Positions 8,267 through 39,685 of a stretch of 43,055 bases of DNA are shown in pieces (position 1 is the first letter of the stretch; the number at the start of each line of letters is the position of its first letter). The translations under genes and the position numbers were made by a program. Source of the DNA: a virus; IMG/VR virus record IMGVR_UViG_3300010354_000180, positions 1 through 43,055 of that record; one strand, 5' to 3'. The notes under the pieces were generated by a model. The model worked only from the letters and a program-made list of their open reading frames with translations. It searched no databases and was not told where the DNA came from.

Positions 8267-8950
8267 ATGGAAGCAACAATTAATACATATCGAAGTGCAA
8301 GTGCCATTAATACTAGTATGGCAAGTGTATACAAGCATACAGGGCTAGCAATTCTAGTCAGTATGTTAGTTAGTTATTTTGTAGGTACCAGTCCAGAACT
8401 ACTACAATTTTTCTTTACTGGTATTACTAAATGGATTGTAATTTTTGCACCATTGGTAGCAGTCATTGGAATTTCAATCGCATTGAATGCCAATCCACCA
8501 AAGTCTATAGCACAACTGATGTTATACGGTTTTGCAGCACTAATGGGTTTAAGTTTTTCTACAATTTTCGCCGTCTATCAAATGGGTAGCATTTTCACTG
8601 CATTTATGGGCGCAGCCGTTTTATTTGGAGTGATGAGCATCTATGGGTACTTTACTAAAACTAGCTTGGATAGTATTGGTAAGTTTATGTTTGTTGGTCT
8701 TATTGCCGTGGTTATTGCCAGTATTATCAATATTTTTATCGGCAGTAGCGTCTTTGCTATGGTCATTAGCGCATTGGCTATCATTGTTTTCTTGGGTTTA
8801 ACTGCATATGATACACAAAAGATTCGTGAAATGGTCAGTTACGAACGTGATACTGGGTCGCTTGAAGTCCAGGGTGCATTGACATTATACCTAGATTTCA
8901 TTAATATATTCTTATCTCTACTACAACTATTTGGTGGCAAGAAAGAATGA
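8267..8950 (+). CDS. Bax inhibitor-1 / YccA-type membrane protein
   Basis: 227 aa with about seven transmembrane segments. The pattern matches the Bax inhibitor-1 (UPF0005; YbhL/YccA) family: a short polar N-terminus, the segment GFAALMGLSFSTIF, the ALAIIVFLGLTAYDTQKI motif (~residues 175-190) typical of the family, and a last helix ALTLYLDFINIFLSLL. Bacterial YccA is a substrate and modulator of the FtsH membrane protease, and eukaryotic members leak Ca2+. In a phage it may adjust inner-membrane proteolysis or delay lysis (inference). AGGAGC precedes the ATG. The 3' end overlaps the clamp loader start by four bases. Confidence 0.8.
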   Translation: MEATINTYRSASAINTSMASVYKHTGLAILVSMLVSYFVGTSPELLQFFFTGITKWIVIFAPLVAVIGISIALNANPPKSIAQLMLYGFAALMGLSFSTIFAVYQMGSIFTAFMGAAVLFGVMSIYGYFTKTSLDSIGKFMFVGLIAVVIASIINIFIGSSVFAMVISALAIIVFLGLTAYDTQKIREMVSYERDTGSLEVQGALTLYLDFINIFLSLLQLFGGKKE

Positions 8951-18348: not shown

Positions 18349-18792
18349 ATGTCTACAGAAATTTTTAGAAAATACATTGACCTATTAAATGAGTCTACTA
18401 ATTTAAGTATTGAGCAATTAGCAACAATTAGTGATAAGGCATTGGATGATGCATACCATTATGGACGCAGCACACCAGGTAATACTTTTGGTTGGCAAGC
18501 TAATCTTAAGTCAGCCGAGTTTGCTAAAAAAGCTATTGAATCGGGTGTAACCGATATCGAACAAATCGCCGATGCAATTCATAAGGGCTGGAATGTTACT
18601 GCAAGAGCATTTGTACAAAATCCAGAGCAATTCGATGATACTGAAAAATTAAGAGCAGCAGGTAAATTAGAGGCTAAATTAGCTCAACGTGAAAAATTAA
18701 TGAACATTAATTATGCACAATTACCCGATGAAGAACAGGAAAAAGACCGTGTAGTTGCTAGAGCATTATTGCAAGCAATGCAAGGTAGTTAA
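18349..18792 (+). CDS. Helical protein with RyR-like end and capsid-targeting-like leader
   Basis: 147 aa. The leader MSTEIFRKYIDLLNE/S resembles the capsid targeting sequences of the later cargo genes, with a potential (L/I)xE cut after residue 15. The body is alpha-helical. The region IADAIHKGWNVTA (~80-92) followed by INYAQLPDEEQEKDRVVAR (~119-137) recalls the RyR domain pattern (H-x-GW ... Y-x-LP-x-x-x-K/E-x-x-DR). The match is by eye and partial. AAGGAA precedes the ATG. Confidence 0.45.
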   Translation: MSTEIFRKYIDLLNESTNLSIEQLATISDKALDDAYHYGRSTPGNTFGWQANLKSAEFAKKAIESGVTDIEQIADAIHKGWNVTARAFVQNPEQFDDTEKLRAAGKLEAKLAQREKLMNINYAQLPDEEQEKDRVVARALLQAMQGS

Positions 18793-18811
18793 GATTTTTT
18801 AAGGAGAAGTA

Positions 18812-19006
18812 ATGGAGTCGTTAAATCAGTTAAAGGTACAATTTGAAGAAGCACTTAAAGAACATGAGAAGTTCTCAAAGGGCAATTCAGCAGCAGGAAC
18901 ACGTGCGAGAAAAGCATTAGGTGAAGTAGCTAAACTATGCAAAGTTATTCGTAACGAAATTACTGCTGAAAAGGCAGCAAGAAAAGAATCTAAAGCAACC
19001 AAGTAA
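18812..19006 (+). CDS. Hc1-type histone H1-like protein
   Basis: 64 aa, Lys/Arg/Ala/Glu-rich helix pair. The core HEKFSKGNSAAGTRARKALG (~17-36) then KLCKVIRNEI closely follows the bacterial Hc1/HCT family (GNKAA-x-RxR pattern), which compacts DNA. The long Lys/Ala tail of chlamydial Hc1 is reduced to KAARKESKATK. It may bind phage or host DNA, or be packaged with the genome (inference). AAGGAG precedes the ATG. Confidence 0.7.
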   Translation: MESLNQLKVQFEEALKEHEKFSKGNSAAGTRARKALGEVAKLCKVIRNEITAEKAARKESKATK

Positions 19007-19008
19007 AA

Positions 19009-19863
19009 ATGAAGAAAATCGTCGTCATGCCGGGAGGCTTTCATCCATTTCATGCAGGGCATTATGCATTATACCAATCTGCCCTTGAAGCCTTCCCTGA
19101 CGCCGATGTTTATGTAGCTGCAACTAACGATCAGAAAGCTAGACCGTTTCCATTTAGTATTAAAGAAAAATTAGCTAAATTGGCAGGTGTAGCACCTGGT
19201 CGTTTTATTCAAGTTAAGAGTCCCTTTAAGGCAGAAGAAATCACCAGTCAATACAATCCAAATGAAGATGTATTAATATTTGTACGCAGTGAAAAAGATC
19301 GCAATGAACAACCAAAGCCCGGTGGTGTAAAGAAAGACGGAACTCCCGCATACTTTCAACCATGGACAGGAAAAGATTTAAAACCATTCAGTCAACACGC
19401 ATACATTGATTATCTACCTACAGTAGAATTTGGTCCTGGTATTAAGAGTGCTACTGAAATTCGTAATGCATGGCCTAATTTAAATGACAGACAGAAAACT
19501 GCAATGGTTATGAGTCTATATCCTGTAACACAAAAGAATCCTAAACTTGCAAAAAATGTTGTTGAGTTGTTGAATGTGGGTATGAGTGGTGAACTAGCCG
19601 AAACTATGAACAACCCTAATCAGGACAATTTCATAGACCAAGAAACAGAAAAAATTCTTAAGTATGCTAAAGCACACTACCCACAGTCTGCATCAAAGCA
19701 ACAAGCATTCGTCATGTATGTATTACGTGCATTAAAACACAGCGAACAAGATGATGACGATCAGGACGAAAAGATCAATAAGCTTCAACGTGCTATTAAG
19801 GATTTAGAAGCCAAAGTAAATTCACCATTGCATGAAAATAAAGACTATTTAGATGAAGTATAA
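19009..19863 (+). CDS. HxGH nucleotidyltransferase with helical extension
   Basis: 284 aa. MPGGFHPFHAGHYALY (7-22) gives the HxGH motif (H15-H18) of the cytidylyltransferase/NadD superfamily, which joins a nucleotide to a phosphorylated substrate. The Rossmann-like domain spans ~1-165. KSATEIRN (~residues 147-154) is in the place of the second, ISSTxIR-type motif. Residues ~180-284 are helical and end in a charged coil. The substrate cannot be told. It begins two bases after the histone-like gene and precedes a glycosyltransferase. Confidence 0.7.
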   Translation: MKKIVVMPGGFHPFHAGHYALYQSALEAFPDADVYVAATNDQKARPFPFSIKEKLAKLAGVAPGRFIQVKSPFKAEEITSQYNPNEDVLIFVRSEKDRNEQPKPGGVKKDGTPAYFQPWTGKDLKPFSQHAYIDYLPTVEFGPGIKSATEIRNAWPNLNDRQKTAMVMSLYPVTQKNPKLAKNVVELLNVGMSGELAETMNNPNQDNFIDQETEKILKYAKAHYPQSASKQQAFVMYVLRALKHSEQDDDDQDEKINKLQRAIKDLEAKVNSPLHENKDYLDEV

Positions 19864-19916
19864 TTTTTTGGTAACAAAAATATCATCTAAATAATTTTAA
19901 CTTTATTGAGGAATGC

Positions 19917-20783
19917 ATGTCAGAAGATAACCAAGAAAAAACTGTTCCAGTGGAACAACTTCAAGAGATTGCTGAACAACAACAGCAACAAGCACAGCCG
20001 GGCCAAGTGCAGGTAAATGTAGATTTTCTAAGAACCACACGTGTTCACATAGCAATGCCCTGCTATGGTGGTATGTTAACTGAATCTACCTTTATGAGTT
20101 TTATTAAATGGGCTAATACAGCAAGGCAATTAGGCATTGATTGGACATTAGAAACAATGGTCAATGAAAGCTTGATCAGTAGGGCACGTAATACATTAAC
20201 AGCTAAGTTTTTGGATATGCCTGACGCTACTCACTTATTCTTTGTTGATGCAGATATTGGTTGGGAGCCATGGCATCTATTAGTACTTATAAATCGTGAC
20301 GTTGACGTAATCGGTGGACTTTATCCCATGAAGACTATGCCGATCAAGTGGGTTGTTAACGGATTTGAAGGGGCAGAAGAAGGACCCGATGGATTACAAG
20401 AAGTAAGCAAAGCCGGTACAGGATTTTTGCTAATGAAGAAACATGTCTTTCACAAGTTGAACAGTCACCCTGCTGTGAAGCAGTATAAAAATGACATAGG
20501 ACTTGACCCCAAATATGACCAGTATTTGAAAACATATTTTGACACAGCAGTACGTCAGAATCGTTATTATTCAGAAGACTGGACCTTCTGTGAGAACTGG
20601 CGTGATCTAGGAGGAAAAATTTATGTTGATAAACGTGTTCTACTACGTCACTCAGGAAGCTATGTATTCTGTATGGAGAATCAACAACATCTATTCAATA
20701 CAATAGGACCTATGTACGTACAAGAAAGACGCAATCAAGGTTGCAAACTTCTTGACAAAGATGGCAACGAAGTAGCACAATAA
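19917..20783 (+). CDS. GT-A type glycosyltransferase-like protein
   Basis: 288 aa. A Gln-rich N-terminus (1-38) precedes a GT-A fold: HIAMPCYGG (44-52), NESLISRARN (83-92), FFVDADIGW (108-116) with the DxD-type metal motif at 111-113, and SEDWTFC (219-225), typical of the acceptor/catalytic end of family 2-like enzymes. It may glycosylate phage DNA, virion proteins or a host glycan; nothing decides between these. GAGGAATGC precedes the ATG, and an intrinsic terminator follows. Confidence 0.7.
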   Translation: MSEDNQEKTVPVEQLQEIAEQQQQQAQPGQVQVNVDFLRTTRVHIAMPCYGGMLTESTFMSFIKWANTARQLGIDWTLETMVNESLISRARNTLTAKFLDMPDATHLFFVDADIGWEPWHLLVLINRDVDVIGGLYPMKTMPIKWVVNGFEGAEEGPDGLQEVSKAGTGFLLMKKHVFHKLNSHPAVKQYKNDIGLDPKYDQYLKTYFDTAVRQNRYYSEDWTFCENWRDLGGKIYVDKRVLLRHSGSYVFCMENQQHLFNTIGPMYVQERRNQGCKLLDKDGNEVAQ

Positions 20784-20786
20784 ACT

Positions 20787-20807
20787 AGCCCCGCAAGGGG
20801 CTTTTTT
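20787..20807 (+). terminator. Intrinsic terminator
   Basis: AGCCCC, loop GCAA, GGGGCT and a run of six T (20802-20807). It ends the 17782-20783 unit just before the late promoter at 20811. Confidence 0.9.
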
Positions 20808-20810
20808 GTG

Positions 20811-20817
20811 ATAAATA
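20811..20817 (+). promoter_or_regulatory. Candidate late promoter (GATAAATAG)
   Basis: Directly downstream of the terminator T-run and only 4 bases before ATG 20822, with no Shine-Dalgarno site. It fits a leaderless late message. Confidence 0.55.
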
Positions 20818-20821
20818 GCTA

Positions 20822-22804
20822 ATGAACCTCAACGAGCTAGATAAATTTCGCCTAGGCGATGCATTAAAATTTCACAACGATTTAAACCCTAAGCTATGGT
20901 TTAACAATCGCCTTCGACCAGAAGTACAAAAACAACTTAAATTAATCGCACAAGATTTTATTGAAGAATTGGGTATCAATAGTTTTGATGTAAAAGATTT
21001 AACTATATCTGGATCAAACGCTGCGTACAGTTATACACCCCATAGCGATTTAGACTTGCATATTCTAATCGATATGAATGAGTTACCCAATAACGAAGTC
21101 TACAGAGAATTATTCAACGCCAAAAAAACAATTTATAATGACAGTCACAATATAAAAGTTCACGGTGTTCCTGTAGAATTATATGTGCAGGATGTTAATC
21201 AACCTGTAATTAGTTTGGGTGAATATAGTTTATTACAGAATAAATGGATTAAAGTTCCTAGTAAAAAGAGAGCTAACTTTGATCAGACAGCAACCAAAGC
21301 AAAATACGACAAATTACATGCATTAATTAAACACGCACTTAAATCCAAAGATTTGAAAATTGTAGGGAACGTAATTAAAAAGATTAAGCAATATAGACAG
21401 GCTGGATTAGATAAAGCAGGTGAGTTTGGTCCTGAAAATCTAGCATACAAGATATTACGTAACCAAGACTATATCACCAAACTGTATGATTTGCGTGATA
21501 AACTACATAGTGATGAATTAACTATAGAAACTATGTATCAACAACCTGGTAGCACTAAACTATTAGACAAGCCTACACTATCAGTTAGAGCATTAGCATT
21601 AAAGCATAATGTCACAGTCAAACATATTTTAAATCAATTGAAACGTGGCATTGAAGTAGAAAGCGAACATACAACATATGCACAAACTGCACGTGAAATT
21701 GCATTAGACCATTTAGCAGAAGATCCCAATTATTATACCAAATTAAAGAAAGCACAATTAGAAGAAGAAAAATATGATGAATTACCTGAAAAGGTTTATC
21801 ATGTAACGTTAGCAGATAACTTAGGTAGTATAATGAGTAGAGGTTTAATACCTCAAATTGGTGACAGAGCTAGAAAAATAGAAGGCGAAAAGCCCGCAGT
21901 ATATTGCTTCCCTGACAAAGTAAGTATGGAAGATGCTGTTATGAATTGGTTAGGTGATGAATACGATGAGGATGATCAACTAGCATTATTAGAAATTGAT
22001 ACTACAGGGTTGAAGGGCCAAGTGACTGACGGTGCTCAGTACGAAGTGGCAATTACCGATAGTATCCCTGTAGATAATATACGTATATTATCCAGAGACT
22101 TAGCAACACCTATTACTGAAAGTATAGAACTGTCTAACGGCAAGCCTGCCTGGAGAATTCGTTTTGAAAGATTTAAAGGACTGGATTCACTATTACCAGA
22201 ACGTGAGAACAAAATGTATCTTATGCCACTGGATAAATCTGCACTAAGAACATTCGGTAGTCTTACAGGTAAAGATTTTGACAAAATCAAAAACATGCCC
22301 ACTGAAGTTTATAGTGTAGATGGCAACGCTATGGTTGGTGATATGTACATCATTAATCAGATATTTAGGCAAATGCAGGAATTAAAACAATATAAACAAA
22401 TAATGAATCGCCCGGAGAATGCTAAAAATAAGCAAGAAACGTTAGATTTTATAGAAGAATTAAAACAAGAATATCTCAATACTAGAGTACCCTATAGTGA
22501 ATATCGACCGGGCATGTTTAGATTTCCTGAAATATTAGCTGAACCTGGACAGATTACCAAGATAGAAAATAAAGGCGTTAGCTACGATAAAAATACCGGC
22601 GAAATTAAATTAACTGACAGACGAATAGGAGAAAGTGCTTCAGGATATATTCCAAGCTATGCTGAACGCAATGATCCTAGATTTAAAACAGCACTAACAG
22701 TAGATATTAAACCTGACACAATGAAAAAGAATGCAAAAGCATTTGGTAATAAGATAAGTCGTGCAGGAATACCGCCAACATTGAGACCAAGTGGGAAGTT
22801 CTGA
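20822..22804 (+). CDS. Multidomain protein: nucleotidyltransferase, DUF5661-like, ART-like
   Basis: 660 aa. Residues ~35-130 are a minimal nucleotidyltransferase: SGSNAAYSYTPHSDLDLHIL has the GS motif (63-64) and DxD (76-78). Residues ~255-310 resemble DUF5661 (GIEVESEHT, then IALDHLAEDPNYY). Residues ~320-440 look like an ADP-ribosyltransferase-type fold: KVYHVT (324-329), IMSRGLIPQIG, VYCFPDK, with an acidic end segment. The final ~60 residues (SASGYIPSYAERNDPRF) form a module I associate with ends of phage polyproteins. No MKxxEF leader is seen. Likely a cargo or host-modifying protein (inference). Confidence 0.6.
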   Translation: MNLNELDKFRLGDALKFHNDLNPKLWFNNRLRPEVQKQLKLIAQDFIEELGINSFDVKDLTISGSNAAYSYTPHSDLDLHILIDMNELPNNEVYRELFNAKKTIYNDSHNIKVHGVPVELYVQDVNQPVISLGEYSLLQNKWIKVPSKKRANFDQTATKAKYDKLHALIKHALKSKDLKIVGNVIKKIKQYRQAGLDKAGEFGPENLAYKILRNQDYITKLYDLRDKLHSDELTIETMYQQPGSTKLLDKPTLSVRALALKHNVTVKHILNQLKRGIEVESEHTTYAQTAREIALDHLAEDPNYYTKLKKAQLEEEKYDELPEKVYHVTLADNLGSIMSRGLIPQIGDRARKIEGEKPAVYCFPDKVSMEDAVMNWLGDEYDEDDQLALLEIDTTGLKGQVTDGAQYEVAITDSIPVDNIRILSRDLATPITESIELSNGKPAWRIRFERFKGLDSLLPERENKMYLMPLDKSALRTFGSLTGKDFDKIKNMPTEVYSVDGNAMVGDMYIINQIFRQMQELKQYKQIMNRPENAKNKQETLDFIEELKQEYLNTRVPYSEYRPGMFRFPEILAEPGQITKIENKGVSYDKNTGEIKLTDRRIGESASGYIPSYAERNDPRFKTALTVDIKPDTMKKNAKAFGNKISRAGIPPTLRPSGKF

Positions 22805-22819
22805 TAAACTAGTATTTTG

Positions 22820-22826
22820 ATAAATA
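22820..22826 (+). promoter_or_regulatory. Candidate late promoter within an inverted repeat
   Basis: GATAAATACTATATT with TAGTATTT/AAATACTA (22810-22817 and 22822-22829) as an 8-base-pair dyad. ATG 22849 follows after 22 bases with a weak CGGAA site. Confidence 0.6.
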
Positions 22827-22848
22827 CTATATTAATTCGGAATTCCCT

Positions 22849-23976
22849 ATGAAAATCAATCAAATAATCATCAATGAAACTACGACCGCAGGCGCAGTTG
22901 CTACGGTCGCTAAACCAATGGGTGAAACTCAAGTTAGAACCAAAGTCCGCGGTCTAGAGCCAGCTGAAAAAGTCATGAAGGGCAAGGCTAAAAAGCAAGG
23001 CCCATATGCAAATAGCTTAAGTGAAAGTAAAAATAAAGTCGAAGAAGCTAAACTAGATGAAGATGATTTGATTGTTGTACCCGGTCAAGGAATAAAAAGA
23101 AAGACAGGTTTTGTACAGCATGGTCAAAGTCGTGTAGACCATGAAGTTGAAATGGCACGTAGCGATGTATTAGCTACGATGAAAAATGCAAAAGCAATTT
23201 ATCAACTATTAAAAGATCGTAGTGAAGATGAAGGAATTGAAGGATGGGTACAAGAAAAGCTTATCAAAGCAAATGACTATCTAAATTCTGTTAAAGAATA
23301 CTATGATGAAAAAATGATGCGTGAAATGACCGGTGGTGTGATTGCAGCAGGTGGGGTAGGAGAAGGTGTGGCGGAAGGCAAGTTAGGTAGTTTAGCATCG
23401 CCAGCCGGAAGCAGGCTAGCACAAATACAAAGTCAAGCAATGGCATTAAGTAGAAAAGCAAATGCCGTTGGTGTAGGTAAAGAATGGGTACACATGATCA
23501 AAACAGGATCAACAAAAGAAATAGATGCTGCCCTAGACCTAGCATGGGATGAAAGGGACGATGCAGCCTCGACAGGAATATTGACTTCACTTCAAGAAAT
23601 AGTTAATTATTTAACAGGAGAATCTAATTATCTTCCATCTAAAATAAAAGAACAAGGTGTGGCGGAAGGCTCATTAAAAGAAGGGCAGTACGAAATGATG
23701 CTACGCAACGGACAGGTAAAAAAGTTTGTTGCTAAAGACGATGCCGATGCTAAAAGAATCGCTGCCGGCCACGGTGCTAAAAGTGTTATCAAGTTAAAAG
23801 GTGGTGTCCCTGCTGGTAAAGTAGCAGAAGGAGCTAAAGTAGACCGTATGGTTAAGCATATTGCTAAATCAGAACGTGAAACGGGAAAGTCTAGCAAAGA
23901 AGCAGAAAACATTGCTTGGGCAACTGTTAACAAACGTGGCTATTTAGATAATAAGAACAAAAAGAAAGGTAAGTAA
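22849..23976 (+). CDS. Modular capsid-cargo candidate with GVAEG sites
   Basis: 375 aa, highly charged, Ala/Lys/Glu-rich. Leader MKINQIIINE/T resembles the T4 capsid targeting sequence. Modules appear joined by short (V/L)xE sites: SLSE/S (~57-59), GVAE/G at 173-177 and 270-274, and KVAE/G near 325. Between them are helical blocks (QSRVDHEVEMARSD; AIYQLLKDRSEDEG) and a small alpha/beta piece (EMMLRNGQVKKFVAKDDADA). No enzyme motif. I infer a precursor cut by the prohead protease and packaged in the head, as T4 internal proteins are. Confidence 0.55.
   Translation: MKINQIIINETTTAGAVATVAKPMGETQVRTKVRGLEPAEKVMKGKAKKQGPYANSLSESKNKVEEAKLDEDDLIVVPGQGIKRKTGFVQHGQSRVDHEVEMARSDVLATMKNAKAIYQLLKDRSEDEGIEGWVQEKLIKANDYLNSVKEYYDEKMMREMTGGVIAAGGVGEGVAEGKLGSLASPAGSRLAQIQSQAMALSRKANAVGVGKEWVHMIKTGSTKEIDAALDLAWDERDDAASTGILTSLQEIVNYLTGESNYLPSKIKEQGVAEGSLKEGQYEMMLRNGQVKKFVAKDDADAKRIAAGHGAKSVIKLKGGVPAGKVAEGAKVDRMVKHIAKSERETGKSSKEAENIAWATVNKRGYLDNKNKKKGK
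23365..23377 (+). repeat. 13-base repeat GGTGTGGCGGAAG, copy 1
   Basis: In-frame GVAE codons (GGT GTG GCG GAA). The same 13 bases recur at 23656, 25316 and 25592, always in the same reading phase and at module borders. Confidence 0.85.
23656..23668 (+). repeat. 13-base repeat GGTGTGGCGGAAG, copy 2
   Basis: Identical to copy 1. Preceded by CAA, like copy 4, giving a 16-base shared string with that copy. Confidence 0.85.
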
Positions 23977-23977
23977 T

Positions 23978-26002
23978 ATGAGTAGAATATTAAAAGGACT
24001 TACCGAAGCAAAGCTTACAGATTTAGGTCCAGGCGACGAAGCTACATGGCCTGCATACTCAGGTCATCCTAATGATCCACGTGATCCTCCTAGAAGAAGG
24101 TCTAGACCAGACGAACCTAGTGGCGACGATCCATATGACCCATGGGACGAACACTATCGCAGACAAGAAAAAGCAAGGCAGCAATACAAAAAAGAAGTTA
24201 ATGTAACATATTCTGACAAAGAAGGTGTTGCTCCAAATGGAAAAAGATACAATAATACCTTTTTAGTTAAAGCAAAAACACCTTATCAAGGTGATAATGA
24301 AATTTATCAATTCAATGACGCTCATTGGGGCGCTAAAACAATTGTAGATACTGTAAAGAAAAACCCAGAAAAAGAAGGTGATCCATATTTAACAATGGTT
24401 TACTATGTAGACAATCATAAGCATGGTTATTGGAAGCCATGGAAGGATGAACCACCTATCAGTAAGGGTATTCAATTCGAAGCAGAGTTGACCAATGAAG
24501 GTATTAGCGAACAAGATTTAGCCGATACACTTTTTTATAGATTGGAAGCACGTTATCCTGACATAGTAACTAGATATGGACATGAGGTAGTAGGTGATGC
24601 TGTGCTAGATGTTGCTAGTTTTCATGCAGGTGCAGAAGAATTAGGATCTAGTGATATTAGTATAATGATACGTGAAATATTAAAGCGTATTGAAAGTCGT
24701 GGGTTGGATGAGGCACAAAGTGGCACAGGTATGGACCCGACTAGTGCATTACAACAAGCAAGAAAAATTACCAGTCAATTTAAATATGCTGATATGCATT
24801 TAGAAATCATTACTAAAATACAGCTATTAGCAGAACAAGCAGGTGTAGACAAAAGAGATTTAGAATATCTTATTAATGATGTATACGAAAAACAGCGTGA
24901 ATTAGAATCCGCTATCTTTGCACTAGACGAACCATTCGAAGAACTTGTAAGAAAACAAGAATGGAACGATGAAGAGGTAGATGAAGGACAGATTTATTCT
25001 ACAGGCGGCGGCGCTGGTCAAGCTATGCGTTGGTACACACCTAAAGATAATTTAGGTGAGGGTGTAATATCTGAGAACCTACGTAAATGGTTTAAAGAAA
25101 AATGGGTAAGATTCGGTCCAGATGGTAAGATTCGTGGTGACTGTGCTAGAGGCGACGATAGTGAGGGTAAACCTAAATGCTTGCCGCAAAGCAAAGCACA
25201 TAGTTTAGGTAAAAAAGGTCGTGCTAGTGCAGCAGCAAGAAAGCGTAGAGAAGATCCTAATCCAGAGCGTAGTGGCAAGGCTATCAATGTTGCTACTAAA
25301 AAGAAATCCAATGAAGGTGTGGCGGAAGAACAACTAGACGAAAAGTGCTGGGATACTCACAAGCAAGTTGGTATGAAAAGTAAGGGCGGTAAAATGGTTC
25401 CCAACTGTGTACCAAAAGAAAGTGTGACAGAGATGGATAAAAGTGCCCCTCAACCTGGTCGTGATGGACGAGTAAGTCACAGCACCTATGGTTCCAGAGA
25501 CAAAGGTGGTAGTAAAGGACCTGAAAAAGAAGCCAAGCCAATCACAGCAAAAAAGGCTAAACAAGATGCTCTTGATATACTGAAGAAGCAAGGTGTGGCG
25601 GAAGAAAAATGCCCACATTGTGGTGGAGCAATGTTCAGCGAACTAATGATTAACGAAAAGAAAGACGCCTGTTACTATAAAGTCAAGAGTCGTTATAAAG
25701 TATGGCCTTCAGCGTATGCAAGTGGTGCTTTAGTTAAATGTCGCAAAAAGGGTTCTAAGAACTGGGGCACAAAAAGCGAAGGTGTTGAAGAAGCAGCCAA
25801 TCCTGCACAACAAGCAGCAATTGCTATCGCTATGAAGAAAGCCGGTAAAAAACCTAAAGGCGAAAGTGCAATTATGAAAGGTCTAGTAGACGAAACATTA
25901 GGCACCCCTTATCCTGGCACATACGAACAAGAAACTGCAATGATTAAACGCAAAGGTCCACAAAGAATTACAGCAATGACCTACGAATCAAAGAAGAAAT
26001 AA
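23978..26002 (+). CDS. Long modular capsid-cargo candidate
   Basis: 674 aa. Leader MSRILKGLTE/A. Residues ~12-60 are Pro/Asp/Arg-rich. Further blocks are a mixed alpha/beta part (~65-170), helical parts (~175-345), a basic Cys-containing block (LRKWFKEKWVRFGPDGK; CLPQSKAHSLGKKGRASAA, ~368-435) that recalls the phage DUF6321 type, then GVAE (447-450), CWDTHKQVGMKSKGGKMVPNC, a second GVAE (539-542), CPHCGG and YKVKSRYKVWPSAYASGALV, GVEE (602-605), and DETLGTPYPGTYEQE. These read as small independent modules between (V/L/I)xE sites. No active site recognised. Confidence 0.55.
   Translation: MSRILKGLTEAKLTDLGPGDEATWPAYSGHPNDPRDPPRRRSRPDEPSGDDPYDPWDEHYRRQEKARQQYKKEVNVTYSDKEGVAPNGKRYNNTFLVKAKTPYQGDNEIYQFNDAHWGAKTIVDTVKKNPEKEGDPYLTMVYYVDNHKHGYWKPWKDEPPISKGIQFEAELTNEGISEQDLADTLFYRLEARYPDIVTRYGHEVVGDAVLDVASFHAGAEELGSSDISIMIREILKRIESRGLDEAQSGTGMDPTSALQQARKITSQFKYADMHLEIITKIQLLAEQAGVDKRDLEYLINDVYEKQRELESAIFALDEPFEELVRKQEWNDEEVDEGQIYSTGGGAGQAMRWYTPKDNLGEGVISENLRKWFKEKWVRFGPDGKIRGDCARGDDSEGKPKCLPQSKAHSLGKKGRASAAARKRREDPNPERSGKAINVATKKKSNEGVAEEQLDEKCWDTHKQVGMKSKGGKMVPNCVPKESVTEMDKSAPQPGRDGRVSHSTYGSRDKGGSKGPEKEAKPITAKKAKQDALDILKKQGVAEEKCPHCGGAMFSELMINEKKDACYYKVKSRYKVWPSAYASGALVKCRKKGSKNWGTKSEGVEEAANPAQQAAIAIAMKKAGKKPKGESAIMKGLVDETLGTPYPGTYEQETAMIKRKGPQRITAMTYESKKK
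25316..25328 (+). repeat. 13-base repeat GGTGTGGCGGAAG, copy 3
   Basis: Same bases and same phase as copy 1; encodes GVAE at residues 447-450 of the 674 aa protein. Confidence 0.85.
25592..25604 (+). repeat. 13-base repeat GGTGTGGCGGAAG, copy 4
   Basis: Encodes GVAE at residues 539-542 of the 674 aa protein, directly before a CxxC motif. Confidence 0.85.
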
Positions 26003-26011
26003 GGATATGTA

Positions 26012-26455
26012 ATGTTAGCAGATGCACTTAAAACACTATTAGCAACAAGCTATGCTTTTGTAATTAAAACACAGAACTTTCATTGGAACGTTGAAGGCCC
26101 TGACTTTCCTCAATATCATGAATTTTTAGGTAAGTTATACGAAGAAGTATATGATAATGCAATAGATCAAACTGCTGAATTAATACGTCAACTAGGTAAT
26201 TACACACCTGGATCTATTACACGTTTTGCTGAACTAAGTCAAATACCAGATCAAACAAAAATTCCACGTGCTGAATTAATGATTGCAGAATTAGAACAAG
26301 ACAATGCAAAATTATTAGCAATGTGGAAAGAGTCATTTCATATTGCTGAAGAAGCCGATGAACAGGGTATAGCTGATTTTATTGCTAGTAGAATCGATGC
26401 ACACGGAAAACATGGATGGATGCTACGCAGCATACTTAACAAAAGTCGTGCATAA
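26012..26455 (+). CDS. dps: Dps / ferritin-like protein
   Basis: 147 aa, four-helix ferritin-like. KTQNFHWNVEGPDFPQYHEF (~21-40) carries the Dps ferroxidase residues (H-W, D, H), followed by LYEEVYDNAIDQTAE with the conserved Glu/Asp set. Dps proteins store iron, remove peroxide and some coat DNA. The protein could protect infected cells or packaged DNA (inference). There is no leader of the MKxxEF type, unlike its neighbours. AAGGAT precedes the ATG. Confidence 0.85.
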   Translation: MLADALKTLLATSYAFVIKTQNFHWNVEGPDFPQYHEFLGKLYEEVYDNAIDQTAELIRQLGNYTPGSITRFAELSQIPDQTKIPRAELMIAELEQDNAKLLAMWKESFHIAEEADEQGIADFIASRIDAHGKHGWMLRSILNKSRA

Positions 26456-26465
26456 AGGATGACTT

Positions 26466-27137
26466 ATGAAGATAAGCGAATTATTGAACGAAGCCTATGT
26501 ACATCCTGATATAGATACTATCCTGCGAAAAAAAGGATATAAATTTTTAGGCAAGGGTGTAGATCAACGTGTCTACGCAGAGCCCAAGTCAGGATTAGTA
26601 TTAAAAATATTTGGTACTTCTCAAGGAAAAAGCGGTAGTGCATCTGAATTAACAAATGCTCAAAAAAGTTTCAAGACATTCTATGATGCAACCCAAGCAG
26701 ATCCTAATAATGAGTTTCTTCCTAATATTATAGCATATACACCCTTCATGTTTAAGGGTAAGCCATATTTACAAATACGCATGGAAAAATTGTTCCCGTT
26801 TACCGGGCCAGATGTAGATGAATGGAACTATACATTAGCTGAATTTGCAGATGATGCAGACAGAGGTATCTATAAATCAGGAAAAGCCTTTGTAGACGGA
26901 TTAGAAAAACAAATCGACAAAGATTCTTACGGTCACACAAAATATGTACAACAATTGGCAATTCTTATAGGAAAAGAAGGCTTAGCAAAGTTATACGATA
27001 CTATTCTTATGTTAAAACGTATTGCTAGAAAAAACAAGTATGTCCTAGATTTACATGACGGTAATTTTATGCTAGGCAATGATGGAACACCTGTCATCAG
27101 CGATCCTTTCTTTATGGGTTGGGGAAGAAGTACATAA
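26466..27137 (+). CDS. Kinase-like protein with capsid targeting leader
   Basis: 223 aa. Leader MKISELLNE/A (cut predicted after residue 9). The rest looks like a small protein-kinase-like fold: FLGKGVDQRVYA (28-39) as glycine loop, VLKIF with Lys47, RMEKLF (105-110) at the hinge, DLHDGN (195-200) as catalytic loop (in place of HxDxxxxN) and SDPF (212-215) in place of DFG. Part of the C-lobe is missing. It may phosphorylate a target or be a pseudokinase. Paralogue of the C-terminal half of the 28710 gene. AAAGGATG precedes the ATG. Confidence 0.6.
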   Translation: MKISELLNEAYVHPDIDTILRKKGYKFLGKGVDQRVYAEPKSGLVLKIFGTSQGKSGSASELTNAQKSFKTFYDATQADPNNEFLPNIIAYTPFMFKGKPYLQIRMEKLFPFTGPDVDEWNYTLAEFADDADRGIYKSGKAFVDGLEKQIDKDSYGHTKYVQQLAILIGKEGLAKLYDTILMLKRIARKNKYVLDLHDGNFMLGNDGTPVISDPFFMGWGRST

Positions 27138-28708
27138 TGAGAGCCCTTGAATTTATTACCGAAAATAAAAGCACCACCATAGAAAAGCTCTACGGTGGTG
27201 ATTATCCTGAGCGTGATGAATTATTTTGGGATCATGTAAGACCCGATGAATTAAATCGTGATCTTACTATTCAGACTATGCCCAAACATAAATTAAAAAT
27301 CATGTTGCAAAGTCAATATCGTGTAGAACACTTAGATGAAATTCTAGATATGATGGATGAAGATCAACAAGCTGTATTGCAAAGATACATGAATGATCCA
27401 AATCTAAGTAATCAAATTATATTAATTGCAGATGATAGAATTATCGACGGTAATCATCGTGCGTTAGCTGCTGCAATGAAGGGCGTACCTATTCATTATG
27501 TAGATTTAGCAGATTTAGATGAGCAAGATGTGACGGAAAACACCTCTAATATACCACAATATCTTTATCATGCTACGTATCGCCCATTATTAAAAAGTAT
27601 TAAAACTCATGGATTAGGTGGTAGTGGTGCCCAAGCAAAATGGGAAGATAGTAAGCCGGGTGTAACGTATCTAGCGTTAGATCCTAATGTAGCAGAAAGT
27701 TATGCGGAAAGTAGCGATGTAGTGCCAGAAGAATGGTTAGATAAAATTATCATATTAAAAATATCAACCAGAGGTTTAGACACACGTAAATTTAAATTAG
27801 ATAGCAATGTTTTAGATAACGAGGGTGATACATTAGAATATCACGGTGTAATACCTATTAACAATATTTCTGTGGTCAAACGGGATATAGACGAAATGGC
27901 ATTGGCCAAGTATCAAACGTTTGGTGACTTTACTAAGCCCGGACCTTTTCGTGGAGCTGATAAAAAGTTAGTTCCGCATCCTAAGAACATACAAAAAGCA
28001 ACTACATTTTTTGAAAATACACCCTACGATTTTCGTCTATTCTTTACTAATGTTCCTGGCTTTGGTAAGTACAGTGAACATGGAGAAATGAATCCCGGTG
28101 AGATTAGAAATATCTTTAATAAAGAACAAGCGGATGAAATAATTAATGGCAGCGAAGATGCTATTACAGTAGTGTTCGTTGGTAACAAAGGTGACAGCAA
28201 AGTAATGATGACACCATGGATCATGGCTCATAGATTTGGACATGCAGTACAAGCAGGAACAAGAATGAAGGGCGGCGGTAGTCCTTGGGTCGCAGCAGAA
28301 GAACATTTCTTTAGAGGTATTAATGAATTACTAAGAGACTTCTATGGCATAGAAAAAAATAATATATTCACTACAAAATTAAATTGGAACTTGCAAAAAG
28401 AATATTCTGCACTTTTTAATGCAATAGGTACACAGCGCAGCAGTAGAACAGGACAAATTAAACGTCCATATGAATTCTTTTATGAATTGTTTGCACAATA
28501 TTTAGGCACCGGTAAAATCACATTAAATCCTTTACCAAAGAAAAAAGAATATGGTCGTAAAGCATGGGGCAGAAGTACACAAAGTTTAAATATGCAACCA
28601 GGCAGTGAAGAAGAATCTCAGTACACAACAGAAATACTTGCAAGAGATATGGAACTAATGTTTGATGATGTGTTATCAAGCAGTGTTGGTAAAATTTTTG
28701 TGATGTAA
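27137..28708 (+). CDS. ParB-like, ART-like and HxxxH multidomain cargo candidate
   Basis: 529 aa from ATG 27137, which overlaps the previous stop by one base; an upstream in-frame TTG is less likely. Leader MRALEFITE/N. Residues ~40-130 look ParB/sulfiredoxin-like (IADDRIIDGNHRALAAAM, DGNHR at 104-108). Residues ~141-255 look like an ADP-ribosyltransferase fold (YLYHATYRPLLKSI, THGLGG, YLALDPNVAESYA). The last ~270 residues contain MTPWIMAHRFGHAVQ (358-372), an HxxxH string near an AAEEH segment that could bind metal but lacks the HExxH Glu. The combination recalls T4 Alt, an injected ART with a capsid leader. Confidence 0.6.
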   Translation: MRALEFITENKSTTIEKLYGGDYPERDELFWDHVRPDELNRDLTIQTMPKHKLKIMLQSQYRVEHLDEILDMMDEDQQAVLQRYMNDPNLSNQIILIADDRIIDGNHRALAAAMKGVPIHYVDLADLDEQDVTENTSNIPQYLYHATYRPLLKSIKTHGLGGSGAQAKWEDSKPGVTYLALDPNVAESYAESSDVVPEEWLDKIIILKISTRGLDTRKFKLDSNVLDNEGDTLEYHGVIPINNISVVKRDIDEMALAKYQTFGDFTKPGPFRGADKKLVPHPKNIQKATTFFENTPYDFRLFFTNVPGFGKYSEHGEMNPGEIRNIFNKEQADEIINGSEDAITVVFVGNKGDSKVMMTPWIMAHRFGHAVQAGTRMKGGGSPWVAAEEHFFRGINELLRDFYGIEKNNIFTTKLNWNLQKEYSALFNAIGTQRSSRTGQIKRPYEFFYELFAQYLGTGKITLNPLPKKKEYGRKAWGRSTQSLNMQPGSEEESQYTTEILARDMELMFDDVLSSSVGKIFVM

Positions 28709-28709
28709 T

Positions 28710-29855
28710 ATGAAAATAAAAGAATTTATAAACGAAGCAGTACTTGATCCCAGTGGATGGGGCAATACGCCATATGGTACGGACATAGATTATTTTGGAC
28801 TACGTGTTCAAATGAAGCCTAGTACTTTCTTAAAGTTAGCACTACCACTAACATCTTCAGTAACAAATCCTGAAGTAGAAAAACATATGAAGGCAGGTGG
28901 CAAGATTGCATATCCAATGCTTGATATTGAGATACCCGATGAATGGCGTGAAGGAGACTTTAGCCAACCTGCCAAAGTTGTAGATCACGAAGGTCGAAAT
29001 AGAATGAAAACTTGGATTGAATTAAAAGGGGATGATCCAATACAAGTTAATATAAGACCACGCGGTGGACTTAGACGTAGAGATTTAAACGATGATTATA
29101 TTCAAGCAATTAGTAATGGGCTTGTGAGTCAACGTGGTAACTTTGTAGACGGTCCGTTATTTCCTACAGAAGATGCGTTAGAAGAAGCAGAAAAGAATAC
29201 TCCAGAATCAAGACAAATTGTTCAAACATTGAAGGATGCAGGCTATAGTCAAATAGGTAGTGGGGCAGACGCTACTGTTTGGATGAAGGATGCAGGACAA
29301 GTACTAAAGATAGTAATGCCTGACAGTCAAGACATTACACAGGCTGCATATACATTTAAAAAGTTCTATGAGTTTTGTATGGCGCATCAAGACTTAGCTT
29401 GTTTGCCTAAGTTTATTCCCATACAAGGTAAAGCTTATACTGAATTCACACTAGGTGATAAACAATATATGCAAATTTCAATAGAGCAATTAAATAAGAT
29501 ACCTAGAAATAGTATACAAGAAGGTATAGTTTGGTTCTTCAGTGATTTTGCAAGTAACAATGTGCCATGGGAACAAGTTGATGAAAAATTAAAATATCCA
29601 ATAACATGGGATGATTTCAATGGTAGATACGCTAATCAATTAGCTGAAAGATGGATAAATCTATCCAGTAAGAGAAACAAGCAAAAATACGCAGAAATGC
29701 AATTACTGTATACCGTAATGAGATTGTTGTATACTACAGGCAAAATAAATAAGATGTACTGGGATTTGCATACAGAAAATGCAATGCTTAGGGGAGACGG
29801 AACAATAGTTATTATTGATCCGTGGTTCGAAAGATATGGTGGTACGATTGATTAA
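28710..29855 (+). CDS. Two-module cargo candidate ending in a kinase-like domain
   Basis: 381 aa. Leader MKIKEFINE/A. Residues ~18-155 are an unknown module (TPYGTDIDYFGLRVQMKPS; DHEGRNRMKTWIELKGD). LEEAEKN is a possible linker, then a kinase-like domain: QIGSGADATVW (181-191), VLKIV with Lys200, DLHTEN (352-357) and IDPW (369-372). The loop motifs parallel those of 26466 (DLHDGN, SDPF), so the two are paralogues. No Shine-Dalgarno site; the start is one base after the previous stop. Confidence 0.6.
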   Translation: MKIKEFINEAVLDPSGWGNTPYGTDIDYFGLRVQMKPSTFLKLALPLTSSVTNPEVEKHMKAGGKIAYPMLDIEIPDEWREGDFSQPAKVVDHEGRNRMKTWIELKGDDPIQVNIRPRGGLRRRDLNDDYIQAISNGLVSQRGNFVDGPLFPTEDALEEAEKNTPESRQIVQTLKDAGYSQIGSGADATVWMKDAGQVLKIVMPDSQDITQAAYTFKKFYEFCMAHQDLACLPKFIPIQGKAYTEFTLGDKQYMQISIEQLNKIPRNSIQEGIVWFFSDFASNNVPWEQVDEKLKYPITWDDFNGRYANQLAERWINLSSKRNKQKYAEMQLLYTVMRLLYTTGKINKMYWDLHTENAMLRGDGTIVIIDPWFERYGGTID

Positions 29856-29865
29856 AAAGGAAAAT

Positions 29866-30300
29866 ATGAAGAAAATAATAACAATAGCAATGTTAGTTGC
29901 AGCATCCAGCGTTTTCGCTCAAAAACAACCTCAAGGTGTTACATATGATGCACAGATACTAAGAGTAAGTGATGGTGATACTGTAGTCATATCAGCGCCG
30001 TTCTTACCAAAACCATTAAAACCAGAATTAGCTGTGAGAATTTATGGTGTTGATACTCCTGAAAAGGGTTTCAGAGCTAAATGCCCACAAGAAGATGCTA
30101 AAGGACAAGCTGCAAGTAAATTCACTAAAGATTTGGTAGCATCCAGTCAAAAGTTTCAAGTGACATTGTATGATTGGGATAAATTCGGTGGACGAGTATT
30201 AGGTGACATTATCTTAAATGGTAAAAGCCTACGTGAAATGCTTATTGCTAACGGGTATGCCAGGGCATATTTCGGGGAAGCAAAACAGAGTTGGTGTTAA
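29866..30300 (+). CDS. Secreted staphylococcal-type nuclease (SNase-like)
   Basis: 144 aa from ATG 29866, chosen because AAAAGGAAA precedes it and it gives a clean signal peptide, MKKIITIAMLVAASSVFA/Q. The SNase fold follows: RVSDGDTVV (33-41), VRIYGVDTPEKG (57-68) with Arg58, Asp63 and Glu66, and GGRVLGDI (108-115) with Arg110, so the key catalytic residues are all present. A Ca2+-dependent nuclease exported to the periplasm or medium could cut incoming DNA or RNA (inference). It sits among cargo genes but has a signal peptide in place of a capsid leader. Confidence 0.85.
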   Translation: MKKIITIAMLVAASSVFAQKQPQGVTYDAQILRVSDGDTVVISAPFLPKPLKPELAVRIYGVDTPEKGFRAKCPQEDAKGQAASKFTKDLVASSQKFQVTLYDWDKFGGRVLGDIILNGKSLREMLIANGYARAYFGEAKQSWC

Positions 30301-30303
30301 TAG

Positions 30304-30310
30304 ATAAATA
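30304..30310 (+). promoter_or_regulatory. Candidate late promoter (GATAAATA)
   Basis: TAGATAAATATACAAT lies directly after the nuclease stop and 6 bases before ATG 30317, with no Shine-Dalgarno site. Confidence 0.55.
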
Positions 30311-30316
30311 TACAAT

Positions 30317-30892
30317 ATGAAAACACATGACTTTGTTAATGAAGCCGCTGCTACTGAACTAGCTAAAAGATTGCCTAGTTTAGAAAAGCATGACTATAAT
30401 ACCATTGACAAACTCATGCAAAACATTGCCAAAAAACATAGAATCACCGGTAAGATTTTGCACGATTTGTTTGTTAAAAAGTATCACTCTACACCTGACA
30501 GTTGGATTAAAAATAAGCTTGACGAAGCTGACGTTGAGTGTGATATGCAAGAAGAAGTTGACAAGTTTGCAGATTGGGCCAGCAAGAAACTACATTTAAA
30601 AACAAGACCAATTATAGAATTGAGTCAGGATACCGAAGAAGCACAGACAAATCATCACACGGGAAGCCATACTGAGGGTGATAACAAAGTTTGGGTATAT
30701 GCTAAAAATAGAAACTTAGTTGATATACTACGCACAGTATTTCATGAGCTAGTTCATGTTAGACAAAGTGAATTAGGAATGATACATCAAGGATCAAGTT
30801 ATCCTGGTAGTCCCATAGAAGCTATGGCTGACATGCTAGCAGGAAAGTACATCAAAATTTACGGCGAGAAAAACAGACACATCTTTCAATAA
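30317..30892 (+). CDS. Zinc metalloprotease-like cargo candidate
   Basis: 191 aa. Leader MKTHDFVNE/A is the closest match here to the T4 internal-protein leader MKTYQEFIAE/A. An N-terminal helical module (~10-68) ends with NKLDE/A, another possible cut. The C-terminal domain has FHELVHVRQ with HExxH (143-147) and EAMADMLAGKY with Glu168 as a plausible third zinc ligand, the layout of gluzincin-type peptidases. A packaged and injected protease is inferred. The stop overlaps the next start by one base. Confidence 0.65.
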   Translation: MKTHDFVNEAAATELAKRLPSLEKHDYNTIDKLMQNIAKKHRITGKILHDLFVKKYHSTPDSWIKNKLDEADVECDMQEEVDKFADWASKKLHLKTRPIIELSQDTEEAQTNHHTGSHTEGDNKVWVYAKNRNLVDILRTVFHELVHVRQSELGMIHQGSSYPGSPIEAMADMLAGKYIKIYGEKNRHIFQ

Positions 30893-32040: not shown

Positions 32041-32631
32041 ATGATTAAACTGTTATTTCCTTTGCCCAGAAATGTGACTGTCGCCTTCAGTGGCGGGGTC
32101 GATAGTGTTGCCGTAGTTGATTTTTTATCTAAGAATCATGACGTAACATGCGCCTTCTATCATCACGGAACTGAGAATAGTGAGAGGGCATTGAAGTTTG
32201 TTAGTCATTTTTGTTCAGACAGAAATCTTCCTATGTTTTTGGGTATCCTCAATCGTGAAAAACCCAAAGATAAAAGTTACGAAGAATTTTGGCGTGAGGA
32301 AAGATATCAATATTTAAGCACACTAGGACCGGTTCTTACTGCACATCATTTAGATGACGCAGTAGAAACATATCTCTGGTCTGCAATGCACGGCAAACCC
32401 AAAGTTCCCAAACTTATTCGCGGTAATGTTATTCGTCCATTTTTGACGACACCCAAGAGTGAATTTATTAGTTGGTGTAAGCGTAAAGAATTGACTTGGT
32501 GCGAAGATTTAAGTAATGAAGATGAACGCTATACTAGAAATTACATTCGTAAAAATCTTGTACCACACGCATTTCATGTCAACCCCGGTCTAAGAAAAAC
32601 CGTGAAGAAAATCATTGAAAATAGTCTTTAA
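32041..32631 (+). CDS. tilS: TilS-like tRNA(Ile)-lysidine synthetase core
   Basis: 196 aa PP-loop N-type ATPase. SGGVDS is at 17-22, AHHLDDAVET at 101-110, then RPFL-x-x-P-KSE and the TilS-type end CEDLSNEDERYTRNYIRKNL (~159-178). Bacterial TilS changes the CAU anticodon cytidine of tRNA-Ile to lysidine so that it reads AUA. This copy keeps the catalytic core but lacks the C-terminal tRNA-binding domains of the ~430 aa bacterial enzyme. It may help decode ATA codons, common in this AT-rich genome, or modify another tRNA (inference). Confidence 0.75.
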   Translation: MIKLLFPLPRNVTVAFSGGVDSVAVVDFLSKNHDVTCAFYHHGTENSERALKFVSHFCSDRNLPMFLGILNREKPKDKSYEEFWREERYQYLSTLGPVLTAHHLDDAVETYLWSAMHGKPKVPKLIRGNVIRPFLTTPKSEFISWCKRKELTWCEDLSNEDERYTRNYIRKNLVPHAFHVNPGLRKTVKKIIENSL

Positions 32632-38134: not shown

Positions 38135-39685
38135 ATGATATACATAGAGCATAATCTAACAAACAATCACAACCCCGACTGGGCACTGTTTTTACCGGCA
38201 GTGTCTAGTTTCTTTATTACTGGTTTGGGGAAACAGCGTGAAGGTGAAAACTATTTTGAAGCTAGTCGCATACCTGCGGGTTTCAACGGTGATGTTGAAT
38301 GCTTGAATTTCTTAAACAGTAAGCAAGGACTATTCACATACAAGTGGGGTTTGTACTCTGCTGGTCATGCTAATTTAGATCCAACTAAAAACGACAACGC
38401 AGAATCTATCATTCGTAAGCGTGAAAGTGGCACGTTTATGTTAGGTGATAGCGGTGGCTTTCAGATTCTAAAAGGTCAATGGCCTGCTGATTGGAAAGAT
38501 CCTAACTGTCCTAAAGCATTAGCAAAGCGTAAAGAGGTACTCTTATGGATGGACACATACATGGATTATGGTATGTGTTTGGATGTACCCAGTGAAAGTT
38601 ATCGAAACACAAAGGCATTTGAGCAACATAAGATTCGTAACTTACAAGATGCTATTAAAGCCACACATATAAACAACGAATATTTTATTCAACATCGTAA
38701 TGGAAGTTGCAAGTTCTTAAACGTCATGCAAGGCCTGACGCATGAAGATAGCGATAACTGGTATGAAGAAATGAAGAAGTATTGTGATCCAAAAGTCTAT
38801 CCTGACAATCATTTCAATGGTTGGGCATTTGGTGGACAGAATAAAATTGACATAGATTTGATGTTGCGTAGGCTTGTTGGTATCATTCATGATGGTTTAC
38901 TACAAGAAGGTAAACATGATTTACTTCACTGCTTGGGTGTAAGTATCATGGAGTATGCTGTACTCTTTAGTGACATACAACGAGCCATACGAAAATATCA
39001 TAATCCCAAATTTCAAATTACTTTTGACTGTGCAAGTCCATTTTTTAGTGCGGCTAAAGGTCTTGCTTATTTCAATACTAGCATTGAGCATAATAAGAAG
39101 TGGTCTTACAGTATGGAGAAGACCGCAGAAAACAAAGATTATGCCAACGATAATCGTAAGTTTAGCGATGCTGTTTTACAAGACGGTATCCACAAGCTAT
39201 TTGCCGATAGTCCAGTGACTGATAGAATGTTGGTTCGTGACTTGTGTTATCGTGGTCATGGATTTATCAACAATCAAGGTAAAGAAACTAAAACAAGTTG
39301 GGACACACTAAGTTATACATTGTTACAAGCACACAATGTTTATCAACATATTGTAGCTGTACAAGAAGCTAATCGTAGATATGAACAAGGTATAATGCCT
39401 AAGATGCTAATCAACAAATTTGAAGATATGCACTTCGGAGATATCATTGACGAAATTTTTAGACTTAACGACAAGAATAAAAGTTTAGCATTAATTAAAC
39501 AACATGAGAATCTATGGACTCAAATGCAAAGTGGTAGTCAAGGATTGAGTGGTAAGAAAACAATTAATGCAATCACTATGTTTAACAAGTTATTTGAAGA
39601 TTCAGACACATCATCTGAAGTTGTGCTAGATGATGAAGATAGTGATGAAGAAATAATGAACTCACTAGACCATGATAACGGTTAA
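38135..39685 (+). CDS. dpdA: TGT-superfamily protein, DpdA-like
   Basis: 516 aa. LGDSGGFQIL (103-112) matches the tRNA-guanine transglycosylase site DSGGFQ (Asp105). MQGLTHEDS resembles the QG-block, GWAFGG resembles GYAIGG, HCLGVSI the YLMGVG block, and TFDCASPFF (Asp298) the nucleophile region DxVxPTR. The CxCxxC zinc motif of bacterial TGT is not visible. TGT-like proteins in phages (DpdA) insert 7-deazaguanines into DNA. A queuine tRNA enzyme is the alternative. No Shine-Dalgarno site. Overlaps the next gene by 14 bases. Confidence 0.65.
   Translation: MIYIEHNLTNNHNPDWALFLPAVSSFFITGLGKQREGENYFEASRIPAGFNGDVECLNFLNSKQGLFTYKWGLYSAGHANLDPTKNDNAESIIRKRESGTFMLGDSGGFQILKGQWPADWKDPNCPKALAKRKEVLLWMDTYMDYGMCLDVPSESYRNTKAFEQHKIRNLQDAIKATHINNEYFIQHRNGSCKFLNVMQGLTHEDSDNWYEEMKKYCDPKVYPDNHFNGWAFGGQNKIDIDLMLRRLVGIIHDGLLQEGKHDLLHCLGVSIMEYAVLFSDIQRAIRKYHNPKFQITFDCASPFFSAAKGLAYFNTSIEHNKKWSYSMEKTAENKDYANDNRKFSDAVLQDGIHKLFADSPVTDRMLVRDLCYRGHGFINNQGKETKTSWDTLSYTLLQAHNVYQHIVAVQEANRRYEQGIMPKMLINKFEDMHFGDIIDEIFRLNDKNKSLALIKQHENLWTQMQSGSQGLSGKKTINAITMFNKLFEDSDTSSEVVLDDEDSDEEIMNSLDHDNG

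Follow-up and report, generated by a model that had tools for sequence, protein, structure and literature searches.

Short T4-like leaders, modular bodies and a DNA-conserved linker in a probable cassette of capsid-targeted cargo proteins from a jumbo phage

The closest described counterparts of the genes discussed here are those of the internal proteins of bacteriophage T4. Read directly from the T4 sequences, the relevant N-termini are MKTYQEFIAE/A in ipIII, MAKINELLRE/S in gp24, SFLTE/A in gp23, MKTFKEFTSTTTPVSTITE/A in ipI and MELITELFDE/D in Alt, where the slash marks the cut position known from published T4 work. In T4 IPI-III, a short leader ending in hydrophobic-x-E and followed by a small residue stands before unrelated bodies, and is cut by gp21 (PMC9026906, PMC3012670). 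The first 10 residues of IPIII, to which IPII is identical, are enough for packaging, and processing is governed by residues 8 and 10 (PMC9026906). Here we describe a cassette of genes with comparable leaders, at positions 18349-30892 of a 43-kb fragment of an aquatic jumbo phage of the T4 superfamily (IMG/VR record IMGVR_UViG_3300010354_000180, positions 1-43,055; hereafter, the window), and propose that it probably encodes capsid-targeted cargo polyproteins that are processed by the prohead protease and swap modules at a repeated seam.

The likeness to T4 extends to the head genes, which are of the T4 type in related contigs. Compared with IPI-III, however, the cargo set would be larger, with enzyme domains and many tandem genes, and its bodies are multi-modular, with internal junctions and a linker conserved as DNA; cleavage, documented in T4, is here a prediction. 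An earlier note on this sequence had described the set as unlike any in T4. This is accurate in two respects, both going beyond T4: the set is larger, and its bodies are modular and polyprotein-like. A shared leader on unrelated bodies, by contrast, was already known in T4. The same note had attributed MKTYQEFIAE to the T4 internal proteins and Alt alike, which is correct for ipIII and IPII (PMC9026906) but not for ipI and Alt, and the internal hydrophobic-x-Glu junctions and the modular make-up of the bodies had escaped it.

Two other systems are similar in part. In phiKZ and SPN3US, N-terminal propeptides of ejected proteins are removed by the prohead protease, and some paralogues share identical N-termini, but the propeptides are mostly longer than 100 residues and the cleavage motifs are different (PMC5694885). 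Polyvalent proteins (Iyer et al., 2017; PMC5512222) are likewise modular and thought to be injected early, and the repertoire found here resembles theirs (kinase, Pol-beta nucleotidyltransferase and zincin-like peptidase). They are, however, single large chains for which self-processing by their own metallopeptidase domain has been proposed, whereas the modules of the cassette come with T4-like leaders and hydrophobic-x-E junctions that point to the prohead protease. The polyvalent kinase family Kinase-PolyVal (PF18762) gave no match above its cut-off (E=0.034).

Seven cassette proteins carry N-terminal leaders of 9-15 residues, ending in hydrophobic-x-Glu and followed by a small residue (Table 1). 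All seven had been predicted in the earlier note and are indeed present at the gene starts given there, conserved in orthologues and enriched at N-termini beyond chance. Relatives of the kinase gene were found in three contigs (L001, L002 and L003), the first two of which appear the same across this region. In L001 and L003, the orthologous genes keep their leaders (MKIVELLNE/A and MKSTDFISE/A; MRATEFITE/A and MRANEFITE/A; MKANDFVNE/T and MNSTDFIIE/T; MSNILRGLKE/G and MSNILKGIINE/A; MLVESVRKLLNIVNE/S), and the residues around the fixed Glu vary. In the 18349-18792 protein, the end of the leader is the only hydrophobic-x-E/[ASGN] site. The DNA of the leaders at 26466, 28710 and 30317 is 75-78% alike. 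When nine related sequences and S-CREM2 were considered together, the pattern M[KR].{2,4}[FIL][FILVM].E matched 36/2212 N-termini, compared with 6/8980 internal Met residues, which is an N-terminal enrichment of about 24-fold (p=5e-20); in the window only, and with a small residue required after the E, the counts were 4/51 and 0/256 (p=7e-4). By analogy, we have high confidence that the leaders would act like the capsid targeting sequences of T4.

Several cassette proteins are multi-modular by orthologue comparison, and most of the modules have no known domain match. Orthologue alignments revealed that whole modules are gained or lost between hydrophobic-x-E sites. The 20822 protein has just two hydrophobic-x-E/[ASGN] sites, ITE/S and IGE/S, and these form the ends of its variable module; in the 23978 protein exchanges occur between GVAE sites. 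One and the same module can stand directly after the leader or, in a different protein, after a linker. An E precedes the module start in 67/70 cases, and hydrophobic-x-E does so in 63/70, against backgrounds of 6.8% and 2.2%, respectively.

The linker is a 19-nucleotide repeat with consensus AGCAAGGTGTGGCGGAAGG, encoding the peptide QGVAEG. Viral contigs carry the DNA repeat CAAGGTGTGGCGGAAG in 120 stretches at least, and the linker copies examined (112/112) all lie in one reading frame inside open reading frames (ORFs); a single protein can have as many as seven GV[AST]E motifs. In the larger contigs, the codons for GVAE read GGTGTGGCGGAA in 30 of 39 copies, compared with 0.3% expected; elsewhere in the same linker proteins, GCG and GTG account for 7% and 13% of their respective codons. 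Strict leaders were found in 35/94 linker proteins and in 201/2694 other ORFs (p=2e-15). A bacterial or host origin of the linker was considered and rejected, as only 7 single copies were found among 84,980 genomes of bacteria and archaea. A literature search on QGVAEG retrieved no relevant paper.

According to the model that we propose, the leaders would be capsid-targeting propeptides of the T4 kind, docking the proteins to the prohead core during head assembly. A gp21-type prohead protease would cut after hydrophobic-x-Glu, freeing the bodies inside the DNA-filled head, and the freed bodies would enter the next cell along with the genome. The same protease would cut the inter-module junctions (QGVAE, ITE, VTE, LDE and VEE), so that each targeted precursor would yield several small effectors, while the QGVAE junction, kept as DNA, would probably be a homology seam for in-frame module swaps. 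For this phage, packaging, cleavage and injection are predicted steps, as is recombination at the seam, and we have moderate confidence that polyproteins joined at a seam explain the module data best.

An alternative that we consider unlikely, but which fares best among the rivals, is that the leaders target the capsid as in T4 and the internal junctions stay uncut, as flexible joints or recombination seams, the modular proteins being packaged whole. The conservation of the GVAE linker DNA goes beyond the peptide and could be maintained by recombination alone, the leaders have the stronger independent support, and for polyvalent phage proteins injection in the form of multidomain chains has been proposed (PMC5512222). 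However, the junctions other than QGVAE (ITE, LAE, LNE, VEE, ISE and IDE) have only hydrophobic-x-E in common, and a leader can take the place of a linker in front of a given module, observations for which a DNA seam alone is insufficient.

Packaging of cargo polyproteins that are cut at leaders and junctions alike would suggest a widespread and little-noticed route by which phages package and inject many different proteins. If true, it would provide a sequence rule to recognise the injected proteins of environmental phages, would account for the kinases, S-adenosylmethionine (SAM) hydrolase, Cas9-like and NMNAT-like proteins present in cyanophage virions, and would represent a phage polyprotein strategy in which packaging, maturation and the exchange of modules depend on a single motif. 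The question of which proteins a jumbo phage injects could then be addressed directly, by mass spectrometry on relatives in culture. More tentatively, the window may exemplify aquatic T4-type phages of a widespread class that would package cargo polyproteins cut by the prohead protease and renew them through in-frame recombination, the DNA-conserved linker being seam and protease site at the same time.

The genes needed for such processing were looked for in related contigs. Peptidase_S77 (gp21) was not found in the window or in its closest relatives (G001-G003), the first of which also lacks gp23 and portal. Among 16 related contigs, which contain the linker or are near relatives, Peptidase_S77 and Gp23 are both present in seven, which are all those that reach the head region, and the head module follows the T4 order gp20-67-68-21-22-23. 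The nine contigs without gp21 and gp23 were evaluated as possible counter-examples and are read as fragments, since eight of them also lack the portal and the portal of the ninth is cut by the contig end. In contig G009, a small gene adjoining the portal starts with MKLFEMFDE/A. G011 and G013 have gp21, and there is no R1-type leader among their sequenced parts examined.

Evidence for packaging comes from the virions of related cyanophages. Table 3 of the S-CREM2 report lists 52 virion proteins (PMC10665884), and the non-structural ones include gp6 (MKDFDSFLEE), gp13 (MKDLHSFLTE), gp14 (MKRFDAFLTE), gp136 (MQTFSMFFSE) and gp154 (MKNFSSFLTE/A). The T4 pattern MK....F[FILVM].E is found in four S-CREM2 coding sequences, namely gp6 (SAM hydrolase), gp13, gp14 (kinase) and gp154 (cytidylyltransferase), and all four are non-structural proteins of that list (4/26 vs 0/167, p=2.7e-4). 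The virion NMNAT of S-SCSM1 and the virion cytidylyltransferase of S-SZBM1 begin with MKSFLQFLKE/A and MRFRQFIIE/A, respectively. The S-CREM2 list also includes homologues of the 20822 protein (gp156) and of the 23978 protein (gp160, E=1.5e-23). The virion kinases, SAM hydrolase and NMNAT of these T4-like cyanophages are homologous or analogous proteins with the same type of leader, which goes unmentioned in the available parts of the reports describing them (PMC10665884, PMC9602691, PMC9146016); a full-text literature search for 'capsid targeting' combined with cyanophage terms returned no report of such a leader. As a separate observation, the Cas9-like protein listed for S-CREM2 virions (L228 7704-10313) has an internal leader-like RFASFMAE/A, ending 25 residues in, which suggests packaged cargo.

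These data bear on two further alternatives. That the leaders remain uncut and target something other than the prohead (the host membrane, a phage compartment or a core complex) appears very improbable: short amphipathic N-termini may have many roles, and cleavage is here a prediction, but the leaders match cleaved N-termini of T4, including that of gp24, and cyanophage virions contain leader-bearing non-structural proteins. Least credible of all is contamination of virions by abundant infection proteins, with leaders that are merely conserved gene starts, since, even though carry-over through CsCl purification was raised by the S-CREM2 and S-SCSM1 authors (PMC10665884, PMC9602691), the T4-type leader is found in 0/167 S-CREM2 proteins outside the virion list and in four or five of the 26 non-structural virion proteins, and leader-bearing cytidylyltransferase-like proteins were detected independently in the virions of three phages.

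Capsid targeting, as put forward in the earlier note, is well supported, if indirectly, by the T4-like leader sites, by gp21 and gp23 in the contigs that reach the head region and by the leader-bearing virion proteins of related phages; gp21 cleavage and injection, also put forward there, are predictions for this phage. It should be noted, on the other hand, that several points weigh against our interpretation. Being a fragment, the window includes no head genes, and gp21 lies outside it. Packaging of the cargo of this phage is presumed from the virions of related phages, and the putative cut sites of the cyanophage leaders are read from sequence rather than from N-terminal peptides of virions. 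The proteins at 19009 and 20822, as well as S-CREM2 gp156, have no leader, so that packaging would not always be leader-dependent. A profile built from 18 leaders of the window families did not separate the S-CREM2 virion proteins (3/26 vs 5/167 at score 6; rank test p=0.77), and the regular expressions that do discriminate were written after the S-CREM2 N-termini had been seen, the exact T4 form being set by the T4 sequence. As for the junctions, the 70 distinct module starts, belonging to seven module families, were delimited manually, and the constancy of the Glu in front of a module may in part reflect joint inheritance of the two; moreover, loci were fetched by the linker itself, and the linker statistics therefore come from selected contigs.

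The identity of the bodies is clear only in part. The kinase-like label given previously is supported for the proteins at 26466 and 28710, which match PHROG 15752 (T7-type protein kinase) with E of 4e-7 and 6e-8, respectively. The structural model of the latter is confident in its C-terminal half, with matches to APH/ChoK-like folds; the TM-scores are low and the N-terminal half is poor. The metalloprotease-like label of the 30317 protein rests on the HELVH motif, conserved in orthologues. Searches of Pfam, NCBIfam and PDB sequences returned no ART, ParB or metalloprotease assignment, leaving the ART-like and ParB-like labels unconfirmed. An AlphaFold model of the 27137 protein had a pLDDT of 41 and was not used.

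Table 1. Leaders, junctions, modules and other features of the cassette (x/y, leader or junction followed by the next residue).
Feature	Position	Strand	Evidence
Leader MSTEIFRKYIDLLNE/S of 147-aa protein 18349-18792	18349..18393	+	Homologue in L003, MLVESVRKLLNIVNE/S
Hc1 histone H1-like protein, no leader	18812..19006	+	Pfam PF07432, E=3.9e-16
Cytidylyltransferase/NMNAT-like protein, no leader	19009..19863	+	PF01467, E=2.8e-5
Nucleotidyltransferase-like multidomain protein, no leader	20822..22804	+	Homologue S-CREM2 gp156 in virions
171-aa module between PITE/S and RIGE/S	22121..22633	+	Absent from L001 and L003 (alignment)
Leader MKINQIIINE/T of protein 22849-23976	22849..22878	+	Compare T4 gp24 MAKINELLRE/S
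GVAE linker (GGTGTGGCGGAA) in 22849-23976	23365..23376	+	DNA repeat, site list
GVAE linker (GGTGTGGCGGAA) in 22849-23976	23656..23667	+	DNA repeat, site list
Leader MSRILKGLTE/A of modular protein 23978-26002	23978..24007	+	Homologue S-CREM2 gp160 in virions
VISE/NLRKWF module junction (Glu codon)	25073..25075	+	Module-start analysis, site list
GVAE linker before KCWDTHKQVGMK module in 23978	25316..25327	+	Alignment, module comparison
GVAE linker before CPHCGG module in 23978	25592..25603	+	Alignment, module comparison
GVEE/AANPAQQAA module junction (Glu codon)	25790..25792	+	Module-start analysis, site list
Dps/ferritin-like protein, no leader	26012..26455	+	PF00210, E=1.2e-19
Leader MKISELLNE/A of kinase-like protein 26466-27137	26466..26492	+	PHROG 15752, E=4e-7
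Leader MRALEFITE/N of protein 27137-28708	27137..27163	+	Leader sequence, orthologue alignment
Module between YPE and LDE in 27137 (ParB-like label unconfirmed)	27212..27523	+	Alignment: in L003, absent from L001
Module between VTE/N and IDE/M in 27137 (ART-like label unconfirmed)	27539..27895	+	Absent from L001 and L003
Leader MKIKEFINE/A of protein 28710-29855, C-terminal half kinase-like	28710..28736	+	Sequence, PHROG, model
SNase-like nuclease, signal-peptide-like N-terminus, no capsid leader	29863..30300	+	PF00565, E=2.5e-11
Leader MKTHDFVNE/A of HELVH (putative metalloprotease) protein 30317-30892	30317..30343	+	Sequence, orthologues

The cassette genes run between a Clp-type ATPase gene and the DNA polymerase gene, whose product is nearest to those of Sinorhizobium phage Phosso and Agrobacterium phage Atu_ph07 (46-48% identity); no direct nucleotide match to the window was found among cultured phages. 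Some of the genes interspersed in the cassette deserve mention. The 19009 protein belongs to the same superfamily as the leader-bearing virion proteins S-CREM2 gp154, S-SCSM1 gp91 and S-SZBM1 gp140, and the Hc1 protein is a possible DNA-binding head component. The SNase-like gene keeps its position in L001 and L003, and its product may be destined elsewhere than its leader-bearing neighbours because of its secretion-signal-like start.

Outside the cassette, the 516-aa protein at 38135-39685 has no match in Pfam at E<=0.001; it presumably resembles a relative of tRNA-guanine transglycosylase (DpdA-like), and a role in 7-deazaguanine DNA modification is only a guess. The gene at 8267-8950 encodes a membrane protein of the Bax1-inhibitor family (PF01027, E=2.4e-53), which is unusual for a phage, and that at 32041-32631 a PP-loop ATPase (PF01171, E=5e-33), similar to tRNA-lysidine synthetase.

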